Source: a virus
IMG/VR virus record: IMGVR_UViG_3300031857_001153
Span: 1 to 26,770 of that record
Reading direction: 5' to 3' (one strand)
DNA length: 26,770 nucleotides
Shown: positions 1,035 to 9,667 of the stretch, in pieces
How the letters are laid out: every line of letters begins with the position of its first letter
How positions within the stretch are numbered: the stretch's first letter is position 1
The notes under the pieces: model-generated
Told to the model about the DNA's origin: nothing
Databases searched by the model: none
Seen by the model: the letters and a program-made list of their open reading frames with translations, nothing else
Position numbers and translations under genes: made by a program

Positions 1035-1315
1035 CGGCTCAGTGCCTCCAGCCATGCGTGGCAGACGGCGGCGACCTGGATCAGTTCGTCGCGCAGGTCG
1101 GCGTCGCTGCGCTCCATGACGGCGCGGGCGACCTCGCCGGCCTCCTCGTGAAGCACGGCTAGGCGCAGCAGGTGGGCCACGTCCGGGTCGTTCGCTCGGA
1201 CGGCGACTGCCTCGCTGGAGCAGTCGCCCCGGCCCCACGAGTGCTCCCCGCCCCACTTCGCGCGCTGGCGATCGCGCTCGGTGGCGATCAGGTCCGTGAT
1301 GGCAGTGGGGGTCAC
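1031..1315 (-). CDS. MazG-like nucleotide pyrophosphohydrolase family protein
   Basis: A 94-residue protein starting at GTG 1315, which overlaps the methyltransferase stop; its own stop overlaps the start of the next gene. The core HEEAGEVARAV (near residue 55) followed by LRDELIQVAAVCHAWLEAL carries the EExxE and ExxxD-type acidic pattern of the all-alpha MazG-like NTP pyrophosphatases. The N-terminus (TDLIATERDRQRAKWG) is typical of the phage versions. Such proteins hydrolyse non-canonical or excess (d)NTPs, or alarmone-type nucleotides, to monophosphates, which fits its place in a replication operon. Substrate cannot be read from sequence. Confidence 0.8.
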   Translation of the reverse strand: MTPTAITDLIATERDRQRAKWGGEHSWGRGDCSSEAVAVRANDPDVAHLLRLAVLHEEAGEVARAVMERSDADLRDELIQVAAVCHAWLEALSR

Positions 1316-2205
1316 GCCGTGGCCCCGTCGAACAGTGAGGGCAGGTCGAGCGCGGCCTCGATGTCTTGGAGGTTGCGGACTGCCGTCTGCCAGTACGTTG
1401 GCTTCAGTTCGATCGCCAGGGCCTGCCTGCCGAGCTTGACGGCGGTGTACGGCTCGCTCCCGATGCCACCGAACGGGCTGAACACGGTCTCGCCCTCATT
1501 GCTCCAGAGCCGGATGCACCGCTCGATGAAGTCGAGCTGGAGGGGGCAGATGTGTCGCTCGTCCTCGTTGTCACGAGCGACACGGGCGTTGAGTGTGTTG
1601 GTCTCCTTGATGTCCCACCAGACCGGCTGCGCCCAGTCGATCCACTCCTCGTTCGTCACGTCGTTCTTGATCGGCACGGCGTTGTCGCCGGGCTTGCGGA
1701 ACAGGAGCAGGTAGTCGGCCAGCGCGGGGCGGGTCATCGATGAGTCGCGGTTCTTCGTGACAAACATCAGCGCCTGCGCCTTCGTGCGGATCGCCTGCGC
1801 CTGCGGGTCCTTGTTGACCGTGACCTCACCGTGGAAGATCCACCCGGCCTCAACGTAGGCGCGGATCACGTCGCCCCGAAAGTCCGTCAGCCCGACGAAC
1901 CCGTTCGTCGACTTCGTGGTGGTCAACTGCTGGACGTGGACGCACGCGATCCGACCGGGCTTCGTGATCCGCAGGTTCTCGCGGATGATGAACCCGTAGT
2001 GGTCGAAGAACTCGCCGCGAGAGGCCGAGTTGCCGAGGTCGCGCGGGCTCGGGGAGTAGGTGAACAGGCTGGCGAACGGCGGGGAGTAGACGGACAGGTC
2101 CACCGACTCGTCGGCCAGTTCGGTCATGCGCTCGCAGGAGTCGCCCAGGAGCATCGTCCAGTTCTTCCCGTGCGCCTCGTCGGTCGTGTAAATGTCGGTG
2201 GTCAT
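1312..2205 (-). CDS. Type II-style DNA methyltransferase (N6-adenine/N4-cytosine, beta-order motifs)
   Basis: A 297-residue protein. The start is ATG 2205, chosen because GGGAGGA lies just upstream and ATGA overlaps the helicase stop; the frame stays open further upstream but without support. Motif IV is SPPF at residues 41-44, and motif I comes late (FSPFGGIGS at 242-250, followed by AIELKPTYW). This is the beta-class order of the N6_N4_Mtase family. SPP(Y/F) is more typical of N4-cytosine enzymes, DPP(Y/W) of N6-adenine enzymes. The usual Asp of DPFxGxG is Ser here. No restriction nuclease is adjacent, so it is best seen as a solitary phage methylase, possibly for protection from host restriction. 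Target site is not predictable from sequence alone. Confidence 0.88.
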   Translation of the reverse strand: MTTDIYTTDEAHGKNWTMLLGDSCERMTELADESVDLSVYSPPFASLFTYSPSPRDLGNSASRGEFFDHYGFIIRENLRITKPGRIACVHVQQLTTTKSTNGFVGLTDFRGDVIRAYVEAGWIFHGEVTVNKDPQAQAIRTKAQALMFVTKNRDSSMTRPALADYLLLFRKPGDNAVPIKNDVTNEEWIDWAQPVWWDIKETNTLNARVARDNEDERHICPLQLDFIERCIRLWSNEGETVFSPFGGIGSEPYTAVKLGRQALAIELKPTYWQTAVRNLQDIEAALDLPSLFDGATA

Positions 2206-3497
2206 TCGGTCCTCCCGAGTTCGCCGGCGCGCTGCATCTCGCGCACCAGGGCGGTTGTGATTTCGGACGCCTCGCGCTCCTTGCGCCGGACGTTGGTGGC
2301 GATCTGCGACTCCAACGCGGACAAGACGATGTGCGCGTGGACCTTGCGCTGCTGGCCGTAGCGGTAGCAGCGGCGAATGGACTGGTAGTACGCCTCGTAG
2401 GAGTCGGACAGGCCGACGAACACCATGCGGGCACACCGCTGCCAGTTGAGTCCGAACGCGGCGATGGACGGCTTGGTGATGAGGCGGTCGATCGACCCGT
2501 CCGCGAACCCGAGCAGGGCTTCAGCCTTGTCCTCGGGCGACCACGAGCCGGACACGTTCACCGCGCCCGGAATGGCGCGAGCGAGCGCGTCGGCCTCGTC
2601 GTTCAGCCCGCACCAGATGAGCCACGGCTCGTCCGGTTCGGCGGCGACGATCTCGGCGGCGCGTGCCACGCGCGCATCCAGGGTTGACTTGCGAACCTTG
2701 GCGCGCCCGCCGACGCCTCCGATGTCGGTGGCGAACAGCTGCCCGTCCGGCACCACGTCCACATCCAGCGTGTGCGGGATGATGTCCAGGCCGGGGAGGA
2801 TGTATCCAGTGTCGTCGTATCCGAGGTCGGACGGGCGGCGCAGCGCCACGGCCCACGATGTCATCCATCGAAACATCGGCCCGCGCGCGTGGCCCTTCAT
2901 GCGCCACCCATCCGAGTCGTGGACGAAGTACGCCGCGAGCATGTTGACCCGCGTTGACACCCCCAGGAACTCGGCCTGATTGGTCAGCTCCTCCACGTCG
3001 TTCGGTGCCGGGGTCGCGGTGCAGGCGAGCCGGCGCGGCACGTCGGCGAAGTGCTGGATCAGGAGCGTGCGCGTCTTGCCGTTGCTCTGCTTCAGGATCG
3101 ACGCCTCATCGAGCACAACGGCGTCGAATGAGGCCGGGTCGAAGCGCGTGACCATCTCGTAGTTCGTGACGTACACGCCGGGGCCATCGACCTGCGCGGG
3201 CTCCCTGACGTACCGCGCGGCGACCCCGAGTCGCGAGGCCTCGCGGATCGTCTGCTGCGTCACCGCGAGCGGGGCAACGATCAGCGATGTGTCGCCGGAC
3301 AGCCGCGCCCATTCGACCTGCATGAACGTCTTGCCCAGGCCGGTGTCGGCCCATATGGCGGCGCGTCCGGTCCTGACGGCCCATCGCACGATCTCGGCCT
3401 GCCACCCGTGGAGCACCGGGCTCGTGTCGCCGACGACGACCTCGTCCGCGACCTTGACGGCGGCCTTGCGGGCCAGGAACTCGGCGTAGGTCCTCAC
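2202..3497 (-). CDS. SNF2/DEAD-like superfamily 2 helicase
   Basis: A 431-residue protein from GTG 3497, which overlaps the primase-polymerase stop (GTGA). It has a complete SF2 motif set: Q-motif-like HGWQ (30-33), Walker A ADTGLGKT (50-57), Walker B DEAS (130-133), motif III TATPAPN (160-166), motif V region FGLNWQ (348-353) and motif VI QSIRRCYRYGQ (372-382). The RxYRxGQ form of motif VI is typical of the SNF2 branch. It should be an ATP-driven dsDNA translocase or helicase. It is immediately upstream of, and overlapping, the methyltransferase; helicase-methyltransferase pairs occur in several phages. No nuclease domain is visible, so it is not a complete Type I/III restriction subunit. 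Confidence 0.9.
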   Translation of the reverse strand: MRTYAEFLARKAAVKVADEVVVGDTSPVLHGWQAEIVRWAVRTGRAAIWADTGLGKTFMQVEWARLSGDTSLIVAPLAVTQQTIREASRLGVAARYVREPAQVDGPGVYVTNYEMVTRFDPASFDAVVLDEASILKQSNGKTRTLLIQHFADVPRRLACTATPAPNDVEELTNQAEFLGVSTRVNMLAAYFVHDSDGWRMKGHARGPMFRWMTSWAVALRRPSDLGYDDTGYILPGLDIIPHTLDVDVVPDGQLFATDIGGVGGRAKVRKSTLDARVARAAEIVAAEPDEPWLIWCGLNDEADALARAIPGAVNVSGSWSPEDKAEALLGFADGSIDRLITKPSIAAFGLNWQRCARMVFVGLSDSYEAYYQSIRRCYRYGQQRKVHAHIVLSALESQIATNVRRKEREASEITTALVREMQRAGELGRTE

Positions 3498-5836: not shown

Positions 5837-5931
5837 GCGTTGTCCTCCTCGGTGCAGATGCCCGTGAGGGCTCCGCGGCAGTGATGCGGTCGGCGGTCGC
5901 AGACCGGGCAGCGGGCGTCGGGGTCGCTCAT
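5833..5931 (-). CDS. 32-residue zinc-knuckle miniprotein
   Basis: A short gene from ATG 5931 to TGA 5833, overlapping WhiB upstream and the exonuclease downstream by ATGA at both ends. The product starts MSDPDARCPVCDRRPHHCRG and has CxxC, HH and two further Cys, enough for one zinc site. Support is the double overlap, the coding-like composition and the good ribosome site it supplies for the next gene. Function unknown; it could also act mainly as a coupling leader. Confidence 0.6.
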   Translation of the reverse strand: MSDPDARCPVCDRRPHHCRGALTGICTEEDNA

Positions 5932-6365
5932 GCGGCGACCTGGCCCTTGAGCGGGTCGTGGCGGCGGCAGCAGCCGCGGGCCTTGGCGATGGACGGGCAG
6001 CCCTCCACCTGGCAGGTGGACCGCTTGCGCCTGCGGGTGCGGCTCATCAGGCGGCGGCACTCGCGGCACGCGCCGCAGGAGTCCCTGCCGACCTCGGCGA
6101 TGAGGTGCCCGCGGTGGCACTGCTCCGCGCCGCGGCGCATCCGCTGACGCTCCGGGAGCGTGGTGCCGCCCCAGATGCCGACCAGCGACGGGTCGCTGAT
6201 GGCGTAGCGCAGGCACTGCGCGAGCACCGGGCACGCGGCGCAGATGGCGCGCGCGGCCTGCGTATCGCGCGGCGACTGGTTCGCGGTCGGGAAGAAGATG
6301 TCCGGGTCGGTCTCGGTGCAAGCGGCGTCGTCGGTCCACGCCGGGGGCTTGAGCGCGAGGGTCAC
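5928..6365 (-). CDS. WhiB-family regulator with C-terminal zinc-finger extension
   Basis: A 145-residue protein. GTG 6365 was preferred because it forms a GTGA overlap with the preceding stop; a GTG at 6377 is the alternative. Residues 1-78 are a complete Wbl domain: C16, then C42-x2-C45-x5-C51 as 4Fe-4S ligands, GIWGG at 63-67, and the basic PERQRMRR after it. Wbl proteins bind sigma factor region 4 and tune transcription; phage WhiB of TM4 is known to interfere with host WhiB2. Residues 83-136 add an unusual Cys/His-rich tail (CHRGH, CGACREC, CQVEGC, CCRRH), nearly doubling the usual length. The tail resembles the fingers of the phage's HNH-type nucleases. Confidence 0.9.
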   Translation of the reverse strand: MTLALKPPAWTDDAACTETDPDIFFPTANQSPRDTQAARAICAACPVLAQCLRYAISDPSLVGIWGGTTLPERQRMRRGAEQCHRGHLIAEVGRDSCGACRECRRLMSRTRRRKRSTCQVEGCPSIAKARGCCRRHDPLKGQVAA

Positions 6366-6556
6366 GACCGCCCCCACTGCTCGCGGATCGTGTCGTGGAC
6401 CGAGCCCACCCGCTCCCGCAGGTTGACGCTGATCTGCGCGCGGCGTGCGGCGTCGCGGCGCACCTCGTCGCGCAGGCGGGCGGTGACGTAGCCGGCGACG
6501 TAGCCGATGCCGATCAGCAGGGCGACGGTCCAGAACAGCGTGGCGGGGGCCGACAT
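6362..6556 (-). CDS. 64-residue single-pass membrane protein
   Basis: Starts at ATG 6556, directly on the stop of the preceding gene (TGATG), and its TGA overlaps the WhiB GTG. One hydrophobic segment (residues about 6-25, LFWTVALLIGIGYVAGYVTA) is followed by a charged, amphipathic helix rich in Arg, a type I-like small membrane protein with a cytoplasmic tail. No recognised family. Early-operon membrane proteins in temperate phages are often superinfection-exclusion factors, but nothing here proves that. Confidence 0.65.
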   Translation of the reverse strand: MSAPATLFWTVALLIGIGYVAGYVTARLRDEVRRDAARRAQISVNLRERVGSVHDTIREQWGRS

Positions 6557-7025: not shown

Positions 7026-7256
7026 TTATGCGGCGTCCTCCCCGATGAGGGCGGACACGGAAACTCCGAGCCATCGCGCGATGGCCCGGAGTTCGGTGAT
7101 GGTGAAGTCGGTGCGCCCGCTCATCCGTCCGCTGACGGTCGGCTGGGTCAGTCCCAGGAGGTCCGCCATCTCGCGCTGGGTGCGCCCGTGGCGAGCCATC
7201 TCTGCCCGGATCGCGGCCCGCAGGTGGCCGACGGGCTGGCGCCGTGTCGTGCTCAT
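7026..7256 (-). CDS. Cro-like XRE-family HTH regulator
   Basis: A 76-residue protein. ATG 7256 is preferred; an in-frame ATG at 7283 lacks a ribosome site. Nearly the whole protein is a helix-turn-helix XRE domain: HLRAAIRAEMARHGRTQREM, then LLGLTQPTVSGRMSGRT and ELRAIARWLGVSVSALI. It is transcribed divergently from the repressor at 7374 and heads the early operon, as Cro does in BPs-type mycobacteriophages. It closely resembles the repressor's HTH (shared GRTQ, LLGL.Q, S.RM.G.T and WL.V.V), so the two probably compete for related operators. Confidence 0.85.
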   Translation of the reverse strand: MSTTRRQPVGHLRAAIRAEMARHGRTQREMADLLGLTQPTVSGRMSGRTDFTITELRAIARWLGVSVSALIGEDAA

Positions 7257-7373
7257 GGGTGAATGAATATCACCTCTCGGCATAACCGCGCAAGATATCT
7301 AGACCAGCGTGTCGTGACCGCCTATCGTGCGAGAGCACGGGCATTCCCCGCCCGTTATCACAGGAGGCACCGG
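7257..7373. promoter_or_regulatory. Divergent promoter/operator region of the lysis-lysogeny switch
   Basis: This 117-bp gap between divergent HTH genes must hold both promoters. Visible elements: a plus-strand candidate promoter TAGACC (7300-7305), 17 bp, TATCGT (7323-7328); a dyad CGTGC-gaga-GCACG (7326-7339); a dyad CGGGC-N7-GCCCG (7338-7354); the palindrome AGATATCT near 7293-7300; and TATCAC-type sequences near both ends. AGGAGG just before 7374 is the repressor's ribosome site. Promoter hexamers are only 4/6 matches, so exact positions are tentative. Confidence 0.6.
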
Positions 7374-7694
7374 ATGAACCGGACGACACGCCAGGAGACC
7401 ACCGCGAAGATCATCGGCGGCAACGTCCGCGCCGAGCTCGCCCGCAAGGGCCGCACGCAGACCGCAGCCGCGCACCTGCTCGGGCTCCCGCAGTCGGCCA
7501 TCAGCCGCCGCATGAATGGCGGCACGGCGTGGGAGATCGACGAACTGCTCGCCCTCGCCACCTGGCTGGACGTGCCCGTGACGACGTTTCTTGACGGGCT
7601 CCCCCGGATGGACTCGAACCATCAACCTGCCGGTTACTTGGCTCAAGTCCTCGCCCCCGCTGCCGACCCCTTTCTGGAGTTGACAGCAGCATGA
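7374..7694 (+). CDS. Immunity repressor (XRE HTH) with attP inside its 3' end
   Basis: A 106-residue protein starting at ATG 7374 after AGGAGGCACCGG. The HTH spans about residues 17-73 (NVRAELARKGRTQTAAAHLL, GLPQSAISRRMNGG, ATWLDVPVTTFL). Codons 76-88 are read through a sequence that is the antisense of a tRNA 3' half (7599-7636). The protein then ends YLAQVLAPAADPFLELTAA, a hydrophobic, Ala-ending tail that looks like an ssrA-type proteolysis signal. Its TGA overlaps the integrase ATG (ATGA). The arrangement equals rep in integration-dependent switches: the viral form is long and probably unstable, the prophage form truncated. In a tRNA-Asn target, codon 88 would become TAA, giving 87 residues. 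Confidence 0.88.
   Translation: MNRTTRQETTAKIIGGNVRAELARKGRTQTAAAHLLGLPQSAISRRMNGGTAWEIDELLALATWLDVPVTTFLDGLPRMDSNHQPAGYLAQVLAPAADPFLELTAA
7599..7636. other. Probable attP common core (3' half of a tRNA, best match tRNA-Asn)
   Basis: The minus-strand reading gives TAACCGGC (end of anticodon loop and 3' anticodon stem), a five-base variable loop, the T-arm GATGG-TTCGAGT-CCATC with perfect pairing, then CGGGGGA plus discriminator G. The 5' half of a tRNA is absent (no TCCCCCG, no D-arm), so it is not a functional gene but a tRNA-derived attachment core, as used by tyrosine integrases. Homology ends after 7636, where tRNA-Asn would have A and this sequence has C. Isotype is inferred from TTAACCGGC. 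Confidence 0.85.
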
Positions 7695-8506
7695 CCACGG
7701 GGGTAGGGGTGCCGGCGTTCCCTGACGCATGGCAGGAGCACGAGCGGGCGTACACGCGCTGGATGCAGGCGGGTGGATGTTCGGATGGCACAGTGCGGCT
7801 GCGCCGCCACTACCTCGCTCGGTTCTCATCGTCGGCCGCTGACCCCATCACGGCGACGACCGACGACCTCGCGGGCGTGCTGTCCTGCCCGGCGTGGAGC
7901 GCGGAGACACGGCGCTCGGCGCGGGCGGCGGCCCGGTCGTTCTTCGGCTGGATGGCCCGCGACGGACGCAGGCCCGACGACCCGTCGCTGAACCTGCCGC
8001 GCGTGCGGATGGCACCGCCCCGGCCGCGCCCGGCCTCGACGGAGGCGCTGGACGATGCGCTGGCGCACGCCGATCACAGGGTGCGGCTCATGCTCCTGCT
8101 CGCGGCCTACGCGGGCCTGCGCTGCTCGGAGATCGCCCGCCTGCACTCCGACGACGTGTACCAGGGCGAGATCCGGGTCAAGGGCAAGGGCGGGCGCGTG
8201 CGCTACGTCCCGCTCCACCCGCGCCTGGCCGAGTGCTTGCGGGTGACCTCGGGCGGATGGCTGTTCCCGAACGGGCAGGGCTCGCACGTCAGCGCCGGCC
8301 ACGTCACGCGGCTGCTGTCCATCGCGCTCGGACCGGGGACCACGGCCCACCAACTTCGGCACCTGTTTGCCTGCCGGGCCTACGCCTCGCAGCGGGACAT
8401 CCTGGCCGTGCGCGAGCTGCTGGGTCACGCCTCGGTCGCCACGACCCAGCGGTACACGAGGACCCCGGACGACGCGCTGCGGCGTGCGGTGGAGGCCATC
8501 GCCTAG
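7691..8506 (+). CDS. int: Tyrosine recombinase integrase
   Basis: A 271-residue protein from ATG 7691, overlapping the repressor stop. Residues about 12-95 form a SAM-like core-binding domain. The catalytic domain has all expected residues: R144 (AGLRCSEIARL), K166 (KGKGGRVRYVPL), H220 and R223 (HQLRHLFACRA), H246 (LLGHAS) and Y255 (TTQRYTR). It is short, with little room for a separate arm-binding domain. It would recombine the adjacent tRNA-derived attP with the host tRNA. Transcription and translation depend on the repressor upstream; after integration the core separates int from that promoter, which would lower Int in the lysogen. No excisionase was identified. Confidence 0.95.
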   Translation: MTTGVGVPAFPDAWQEHERAYTRWMQAGGCSDGTVRLRRHYLARFSSSAADPITATTDDLAGVLSCPAWSAETRRSARAAARSFFGWMARDGRRPDDPSLNLPRVRMAPPRPRPASTEALDDALAHADHRVRLMLLLAAYAGLRCSEIARLHSDDVYQGEIRVKGKGGRVRYVPLHPRLAECLRVTSGGWLFPNGQGSHVSAGHVTRLLSIALGPGTTAHQLRHLFACRAYASQRDILAVRELLGHASVATTQRYTRTPDDALRRAVEAIA

Positions 8507-8571: not shown

Positions 8572-9249
8572 TCAGGCCGTGTCCTCCAAGTAGTCGGCAG
8601 CAGCACGCAGGATCGCGGGGTTGTCGAGGGCAAAGCCGAGCGCACGATTGCAGCCATTGCAGAGCAGGCCGCGGACCTTGCCCGTCGAGTGGTTGTGGTC
8701 AACGTGCAGGCTCTTGGGCCGCTCCCCCTCGGTGGGGTCCTGGCGGCAGATGGCGCACGCGCCGCCCTGCGCATCGAACATTGCCAGGTACTCGGCCAGG
8801 TCGATGCCGTAGTCCCGGCGCATCTGCCATTCCCTGCCCTTGCCAAAGCCCCGCTTCTCGCGGTATTGCCTGTCATACGCTCGCTGGTATGCCCGGTAGC
8901 ACGGCTTGCACTGGCGCTTCAGGTATCCGTAAAAGTTTGCTTCGTCGGTCTCTCCGCACTCGCGGCACTCCTTGCCGTCCCTCTTGTTGTGTACGGGCGG
9001 CTTGTCGAGCGATCCGTGGCGCTGCATCCGGTAGTCGTGGAGCCTGCAGTATTCGGCGGCCATGTTGCGGGCCGGGCGGTCGCAGCCCTCGGCGGCACAT
9101 TGGCTCTTGGGGGCCACCTCTAGAAACGGCTGCGCCGGCCCAAGGGCCCCGGTTCGCCTCAGCCGCTCGGTGTGCATGGAGCAGTAGTGGGCGGACCTCT
9201 TTTTGCGCCGCCGCTCACAGCCGTCGACGGAGCATGTAGCCTCGGTCAT
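8572..9249 (-). CDS. Recombination endonuclease VII-like protein with tandem N-terminal zinc fingers
   Basis: A 225-residue protein. ATG 9249 has GAGGG upstream; the frame remains open further upstream without support. Residues 6-34 and 51-79 are two copies of a finger of form C-x4-C-x11-C-x2-H with a basic RxxRxG end. A third Cys set follows (C95, C98, C114, C117). The C-terminal domain (about 160-212) is the endonuclease VII type of beta-beta-alpha-metal nuclease: ACAICRQ, SLHVDHNHSTGKVRGLLC, NGCNRALG and a final DNP. Such enzymes resolve branched DNA before packaging, or nick DNA. It is the last late gene, convergent with int, behind its own terminator hairpin. Confidence 0.9.
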   Translation of the reverse strand: MTEATCSVDGCERRRKKRSAHYCSMHTERLRRTGALGPAQPFLEVAPKSQCAAEGCDRPARNMAAEYCRLHDYRMQRHGSLDKPPVHNKRDGKECRECGETDEANFYGYLKRQCKPCYRAYQRAYDRQYREKRGFGKGREWQMRRDYGIDLAEYLAMFDAQGGACAICRQDPTEGERPKSLHVDHNHSTGKVRGLLCNGCNRALGFALDNPAILRAAADYLEDTA

Positions 9250-9279
9250 GCCGAGCCCTCCTACACAGGGTTTCGGTAT

Positions 9280-9309
9280 GGCCCTCAGGTGTTGACGCAC
9301 CTGGGGGCC
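9280..9309. terminator. Strong hairpin upstream of the endonuclease VII gene
   Basis: A 12-bp stem with one G-T wobble (9280-9291 with 9298-9309) and a 6-nt loop. It sits in the 79-bp gap between the end of the DUF6378-like gene and the endonuclease start. No other gene is seen in the gap. It likely terminates or attenuates the operon before the endonuclease. Confidence 0.65.
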
Positions 9310-9328
9310 GCTTTCGTTGATTGTACGC

Positions 9329-9667
9329 CTAGAGCCCGACGATTTCCGCGTACACGCTTGCGTACCCAGCAATGTCGACCACGGAGTCCCGGTGGTCTGG
9401 CGTGTTGAGCAGGCGCGACACCTTGACCTGGATCATGCACAGGGCGGCCTGCTGCGGCGTCACCTCGACGCCGAGGATGGGACTCCATAGCGCGGCGATG
9501 CGTTCGTGGTTCTCGCGCGCAGCTCCGTGGGTCTGCTGGCGATCGGTCGCGGTAATGCGGGCAGCCTCGGTCAGTACGGACTCGGTGGTGAGCGCCCCGG
9601 CCGGCGCGGGGTAGGCGCGTTGCCGCTCGGTCGCGGCGCGGTCCTGCCAGGCGTTGTAGTCAGCCAT
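9329..9667 (-). CDS. DUF6378-like phage protein
   Basis: A 112-residue protein from ATG 9667, overlapping the preceding small gene by 8 nt. The pattern DRQQTHGAARENHERIAALW, LGVEVTPQQAALCMIQVKVS, then HRDSVVDIAGYASV is that of a widespread all-alpha phage family (annotated DUF6378 in my recollection) usually found among nucleotide and DNA metabolism genes. Conserved His/Glu/Asp residues suggest a MazG/dUTPase-like helical hydrolase, but the activity is unproven. Length matches the core family. Confidence 0.75.
   Translation of the reverse strand: MADYNAWQDRAATERQRAYPAPAGALTTESVLTEAARITATDRQQTHGAARENHERIAALWSPILGVEVTPQQAALCMIQVKVSRLLNTPDHRDSVVDIAGYASVYAEIVGL

Follow-up and report, generated by a model that had tools for sequence, protein, structure and literature searches.

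A host tRNA-Asn anticodon loop as the predicted repressor stop codon in an integration-dependent immunity cassette of an actinobacterial phage

The stretch of DNA analyzed here (hereafter the window) is a linear IMG/VR metagenomic virus record of 26,770 nucleotides and 70% G+C from an actinobacterial virus, a phage known from sequence alone. It very probably carries an integration-dependent immunity cassette in which the repressor's stop codon comes from a host tRNA-Asn gene. The predicted cassette consists of a cro-like gene, a control region, a repressor gene containing attP, and an integrase gene, in this order. In the free phage, the repressor would be a 106-aa protein with an ssrA-like -AA tail, presumably destroyed by a host protease. 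The integrase would recombine a 38-bp core within the repressor gene with the host tRNA-Asn gene, exchanging the repressor 3′ end for the antisense of the tRNA gene's 5′ half, while the phage core would rebuild the tRNA 3′ half. The first altered codon would coincide with tRNA bases A37, U36 and U35 and change from TAC to TAA, yielding an 87-aa, tail-less and presumably stable repressor in the prophage.

The position of attP in the repressor gene, the reading frame, the tRNA isotype, the base following the core, the rebuilt tRNA and the attL/attR pairs of relatives all support this scheme. Proteolysis of the 106-aa form, and stability and activity of the 87-aa form, would be expected by analogy with phage BPs (PMC4557955). 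We further infer that the protein represses, that this particular phage integrates, and that integration separates the integrase gene from the repressor's promoter and transcript.

The repressor gene and its attachment core

The relevant features of the window are:
7026..7283, − strand: divergent Cro-like HTH gene, ending ...IGEDAA (Pfam HTH_3, 2.8e-10; PHROG 4583, 1e-18)
7284..7373, no strand: presumed divergent control region between the cro-like gene and the repressor (from gene layout)
7374..7694, + strand: viral form of the immunity repressor gene, containing attP and encoding an HTH protein of 106 aa with C-terminus ...ELTAA
7574..7599, − strand: hairpin GCCCGU...ACGGGC, immediately past the 3′ end of the tRNA, within the repressor ORF but on the complementary strand
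7599..7636, + strand: attP common core, corresponding to the tRNA-Asn 3′ half in antisense (discriminator base through U36)
7635..7637, + strand: codon 88, TAC in the phage and predicted TAA after integration (A37-U36-U35 of tRNA-Asn, opposite strand)
7635..7691, + strand: viral-only repressor tail YLAQVLAPAADPFLELTAA (from translation), 19 aa with an ssrA-like -AA end, predicted to be lost on integration
7691..8506, + strand: tyrosine integrase, 271 aa (Pfam Phage_integrase, 2e-21; PHROG 1 integrase, 6e-41)

The repressor gene starts at ATG 7374, with AGGAGG 7 bases upstream (7362-7367), and ends with TGA at 7692-7694, which the integrase start at 7691 overlaps (ATGA). Its product matches Pfam HTH_3 (1.6e-6) and BetR (6.9e-7) as well as PHROG 4583, transcriptional repressor (1.2e-17). 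The repressor HTH (7374-7691) comes closest to two divergent Cro/Xis-like genes, Guacamole gp41 and Charlie gp36, and is less like the annotated immunity repressors of these two phages. The assignment as repressor thus rests on position, attP and tail, and these similarities hint that the divergent HTH genes may have exchanged roles. Scans detected no sigma-70-like site in 7284-7373, and no promoter or terminator. Elsewhere, the window encodes a WhiB-family transcription factor (5928-6377, − strand; Pfam Whib, 3e-21), an N6/N4 DNA methylase adjoining an SNF2-type helicase (1312-3497, − strand) and, directly after the integrase and convergent with it, a gene resembling Endonuclease VII whose product has an additional cysteine-rich region at its N-terminus (8572-9372, − strand).

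As an earlier note on this DNA had read, the frame opened by ATG 7374 runs GCC (7629-7631), GGT (7632-7634), TAC (7635-7637). Since TAC is codon 88, a stop at this codon leaves 87 residues instead of 106. The viral C-terminus (...ELTAA) is ssrA-like as judged on its residues, and the 19-aa end that would be lost is probably a degradation tail; the integrase ends ...RRAVEAIA, not -AA.

The core lies inside the repressor coding sequence (7374-7694). Compared on both window strands with a ten-variant panel of antisense tRNA-Asn, the alignment proposed by the earlier note, 7599-7636, matched at 36 of 38 positions against 24/38 for the second-best site, so that the match is not due to chance; base 7598 (G) matches as well, making the core 38-39 bp. 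Identity is 36/38 to tRNA-Asn genes of Curtobacterium and others; the closest named match is the tRNA-Asn of Curtobacterium plasmids, with 94.9% over 39 bp and an end precisely at 7636. No exact match to the 38-mer, and thus no lysogen of this phage, was found in 84,980 species genomes, and when two positions were freed the Curtobacterium plasmid tRNA-Asn was the sole match. Allowing up to 3 mismatches, the core was detected in 23 of 398 genomes from Microbacteriaceae and, at class level, in 10 of 394.

This search was blind to isotype, and ARAGORN called tRNA-Asn(GTT) at every genomic match with a readable locus (31/31), each continuing ACAG after the core; one further locus outside that count (L043) also has TAA in the same frame. 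Hence codon 88 would turn into TAA and the product into 87 aa, as the earlier note had predicted, and a different isotype or a missing A after the core, named there as contrary to its reading, occurred at none of the 31 loci. A core derived from another tRNA, e.g., tRNA-Thr (NGU), would keep TAC on the antisense strand and leave the repressor untruncated; as derived from their anticodons, tRNA-Thr, -Ile and -Met all give TAC or TAT rather than a stop in this frame, and the phage codon is indeed TAC. Such an origin is extremely improbable in view of the unanimous isotype and ACAG continuation, of BLAST matches of the core among phage tRNAs (mostly tRNA-Asn), and of lysogens at tRNA-Asn that carry TAA; tRNA-Thr itself is ruled out by the isotype-blind matches.

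The tRNA-Asn anticodon loop, read backwards, would therefore be the repressor's stop codon, and the earlier note's reading is supported with two amendments. It had derived TTAAC from the GUU anticodon plus AA: the anticodon loop stands, but only U36 and U35 with A37 contribute to the stop, not the whole GUU. It had also expected the switch to work in any host with this tRNA, which holds for the stop codon; integration, however, also needs core homology, and no exact-core genome was found.

Joined to six different host 5′ halves, the phage core gave chimeric tRNAs that were all still called tRNA-Asn(gtt) (6/6). Rfam and ARAGORN found no tRNA and no RNA family in the window, as expected for a core that is only half a tRNA, and a relaxed core pattern had no match in viral contigs. 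The core could instead be what is left of a decayed tRNA-Asn, or a piece of a phage tRNA, with no working attachment site, in keeping with the lack of an exact match in any genome searched and with a window that, by itself, cannot show integration. We consider this very unlikely, since the 36/38 identity ends at the anticodon like tRNA attachment sites do, an integrase lies directly downstream, the chimeric tRNA is still recognized, and a working prophage arrangement (G058, below) has the same core end and next base.

The hairpin at 7574-7599 is only suggestive of a possible terminator for the rebuilt tRNA: the fold of 7550-7600 reaches −23.2 kcal/mol (z −3.0) and is without a U-run. Near the cores of L135 and L132/L133, too, terminator-like hairpins lie within the repressor ORF, opposite its coding strand. 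Among the prophages described below, the G036 hairpin lies within the shared core, and the G058 phage carries its own hairpin, unlike that of the host at attR. The terminator of the rebuilt tRNA may have to come from within the phage's own coding sequence.

Prophages and viral contigs with a tRNA-Asn core

Counting core copies in the 398 Microbacteriaceae genomes revealed five elements with two copies 37-47 kb apart flanking tRNA-Asn. In four of the five, a repressor-like ORF enters the tRNA in the same frame as in the window and terminates as ...PAG*, its TAA lying in the anticodon loop, the kind of prophage relative that the earlier note had suggested looking for, and the other junction (attR) retains the viral tail and integrase:
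G366 prophage: attR 950045, attL 988902, 38.9 kb, 35-bp shared core
G052 prophage: 42.2 kb, 65-bp core including the tRNA's terminator, integrase at attR
G036 prophage: 38.4 kb, 70-bp core, integrase at attR
G058 prophage: 46.7 kb, 39-bp core GCTCCCC...GGTTA, integrase at attR

The G366 repressor (34-43% identical to the window repressor) ends ...LPEMDSNHQPAG* at attL, its viral tail at attR ends ...VVNR, and the integrase beside attR is 35% identical to that of the window. The corresponding ends are ...LPRLDSNQQPAG and ...LFA for G052, and ...LPELDSNQQPAG and ...KVRAA for G036. In G058 (viral tail end ...AAI), the core is followed by ACAGCC at attL and CATGCC at attR, so that the codon is TAC in the virus and TAA in the prophage, just as predicted for the window. 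PHROG models recognized the G366, G052 and G036 repressors; that of G058 had no PHROG family match and is tied to G036 by weak similarity only. With no -AA on the G366 and G052 tails, and ...AAI in G058, the degradation signal varies. The fifth element, G074 (L136/L137), spans 37 kb between its two tRNA-Asn cores and had neither a repressor in this frame nor an integrase homologue within the 3.5-kb pieces analyzed; it seems to be a different kind of element at the same site, and was left out of the prophage count.

An alignment search with the integrase yielded 80 viral contigs, and the integrase alone as query had no confirmed match in viral contigs. These 80 contigs, L002 and the window together provided seven distinct contigs with a tRNA-Asn-type core in the repressor, all in the same frame (window, L044, L046, L047, L115, L002 and L062/L063). 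GGTTA is kept in five of them (window, L044, L046, L047, L115), where the third stop base differs to give TAC or TAT; L062 has AAA at the stop position, and the core homology of L002 ends a few bases earlier. The viral repressor has an -AA end in 6/7 (5/6 besides the window). At least two repressor groups are represented, without mutual BLAST similarity except via L062.

The shared frame reads the antisense T-loop as GAC TCG AAC (“DSN”) and places a codon on tRNA positions 37-36-35, which is TAA in tRNA-Asn. In several hosts, the second antisense frame meets its first host stop about seven codons later, and the third is open through most or all of the tRNA 5′ half. DSN is thus the only one of the three that stops at the junction without foreign residues, and all 11 distinct tRNA-Asn-core repressors (seven viral contigs, four prophages) use it. 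One might argue that the overlap of attP with the repressor 3′ end is incidental, with attP kept beside the integrase gene, as tRNA-integrating phages do, and a truncation devoid of regulatory role, a view favored by the viral tails without an -AA end and by G074, which occupies this tRNA and has no repressor in the shared frame. The odds are nevertheless well against it: a single frame recurs in 11/11 repressors from at least two dissimilar groups, -AA ends prevail among the viral contigs, and in BPs truncation is required for activity (PMC4557955).

Relation to known integration-dependent systems

Integration-dependent immunity has been described in mycobacteriophages BPs, Brujita, Charlie and relatives (Broussard et al., 2013, Mol Cell 49:237, as relayed in PMC4557955 and PMC9934374). 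A host-supplied stop at or near attL is a published feature of these systems (PMC9934374); in BPs, and shown for BPs only, the long repressor is degraded and inactive and the short form stable and repressing (PMC4557955). The principle is therefore known, and our finding is a new example: the window is a clean case of integration-dependent immunity, not a new switch. It shares with BPs, Brujita and Charlie an attP inside the repressor ORF, a divergent cro-like gene, a viral ssrA-like C-terminal tail, and a shorter prophage form through a bacterial stop at or near attL (for the window, TAA in the 31/31 host tRNAs and in the four prophages of relatives). Its tyrosine integrase is closely linked, co-directional and directly downstream, and aligns from near the N-terminus to integrases of integration-dependent phages. 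It differs in its attB, a tRNA-Asn probably outside Mycobacterium and Gordonia, and in a predicted stop placed exactly on tRNA 37-36-35 with no added residues.

In the Mycobacterium abscessus prophages MabC, MabK, MabN and MabO, the stop likewise arises at attL with the first bacterial base joined to phage sequence (PMC8092301). In agreement, attR of the MabK prophage prophiGD43A-5 reads TTC TGG, and a host A after the core would give TTC TGA. MabK differs from the window in reading its antisense tRNA in another frame (GFEP, not DSN), and for MabC, MabN and MabO no tRNA gene is named as the attachment site (PMC8092301).

The Gordonia phages McGonagall, GMA5 and GRU3 (cluster CW, tRNA-Lys attB-8; PMC5559632) share with the window the antisense frame, -AA tails and a related integrase (45-47% to that of the window). 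Their viral sequence reads ...CCC GCT GAT before diverging, and all 20 tRNA-Lys loci read continue TAA, so that the host tRNA-Lys supplies the whole stop codon, whereas the window would take only the last base. The core of Charlie derives from tRNA-Lys MSMEG_5758 (PMC7542560); its viral codons at the core end are GAT TAC, and no match to this core was found in 98 genomes of the class. Finally, tRNA-dependent lysogeny of the Fionnbharth type, with a short core (~10 bp), a destroyed host tRNA and a phage-encoded replacement tRNA, is ruled out for the window by its 38-bp core, the rebuilt tRNA-Asn and the absence of a tRNA gene.

A candidate frame rule

It is tempting to speculate that phages with attP in the repressor and attB in a tRNA are generally selected to read antisense 37-36-35 as a codon, because this codon is an invariant stop for certain isotypes, although we rate this rule slightly below an even chance. 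The predicted codons are TAA for tRNA-Asn and -Lys, TAG for Arg-NCU and Ser-GCU, and TGA for Asp and Glu. One viral contig (L066:2302), whose repressor reads its tRNA-Lys-like core in a different frame (GLEP) and has an RAA tail end, is a possible exception for tRNA-Lys. Within the open-licence literature, we found no description of a stop on tRNA 37-36-35 or in the anticodon loop; the one paper found to join attP, repressor, anticodon loop, stop codon and prophage discusses tRNA-dependent lysogeny. The anticodon-loop position of the stop and the frame rule may thus be undescribed so far in that literature.

Overall, natural lysogens confirm a prediction made from raw sequence alone, and extend a known switch to tRNA-Asn as a site and to prophages of Microbacteriaceae. 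As the stop would come from the conserved anticodon loop rather than from arbitrary host flanking DNA, truncation would be independent of the host strain. Existing phage collections allow a direct test of the frame rule, which would assist annotators in naming the correct prophage-form repressor, needed for immunity selection markers. If true, the rule would foretell the tRNAs used by such phages, and the conserved anticodon loop would act as a truncation signal regardless of host.
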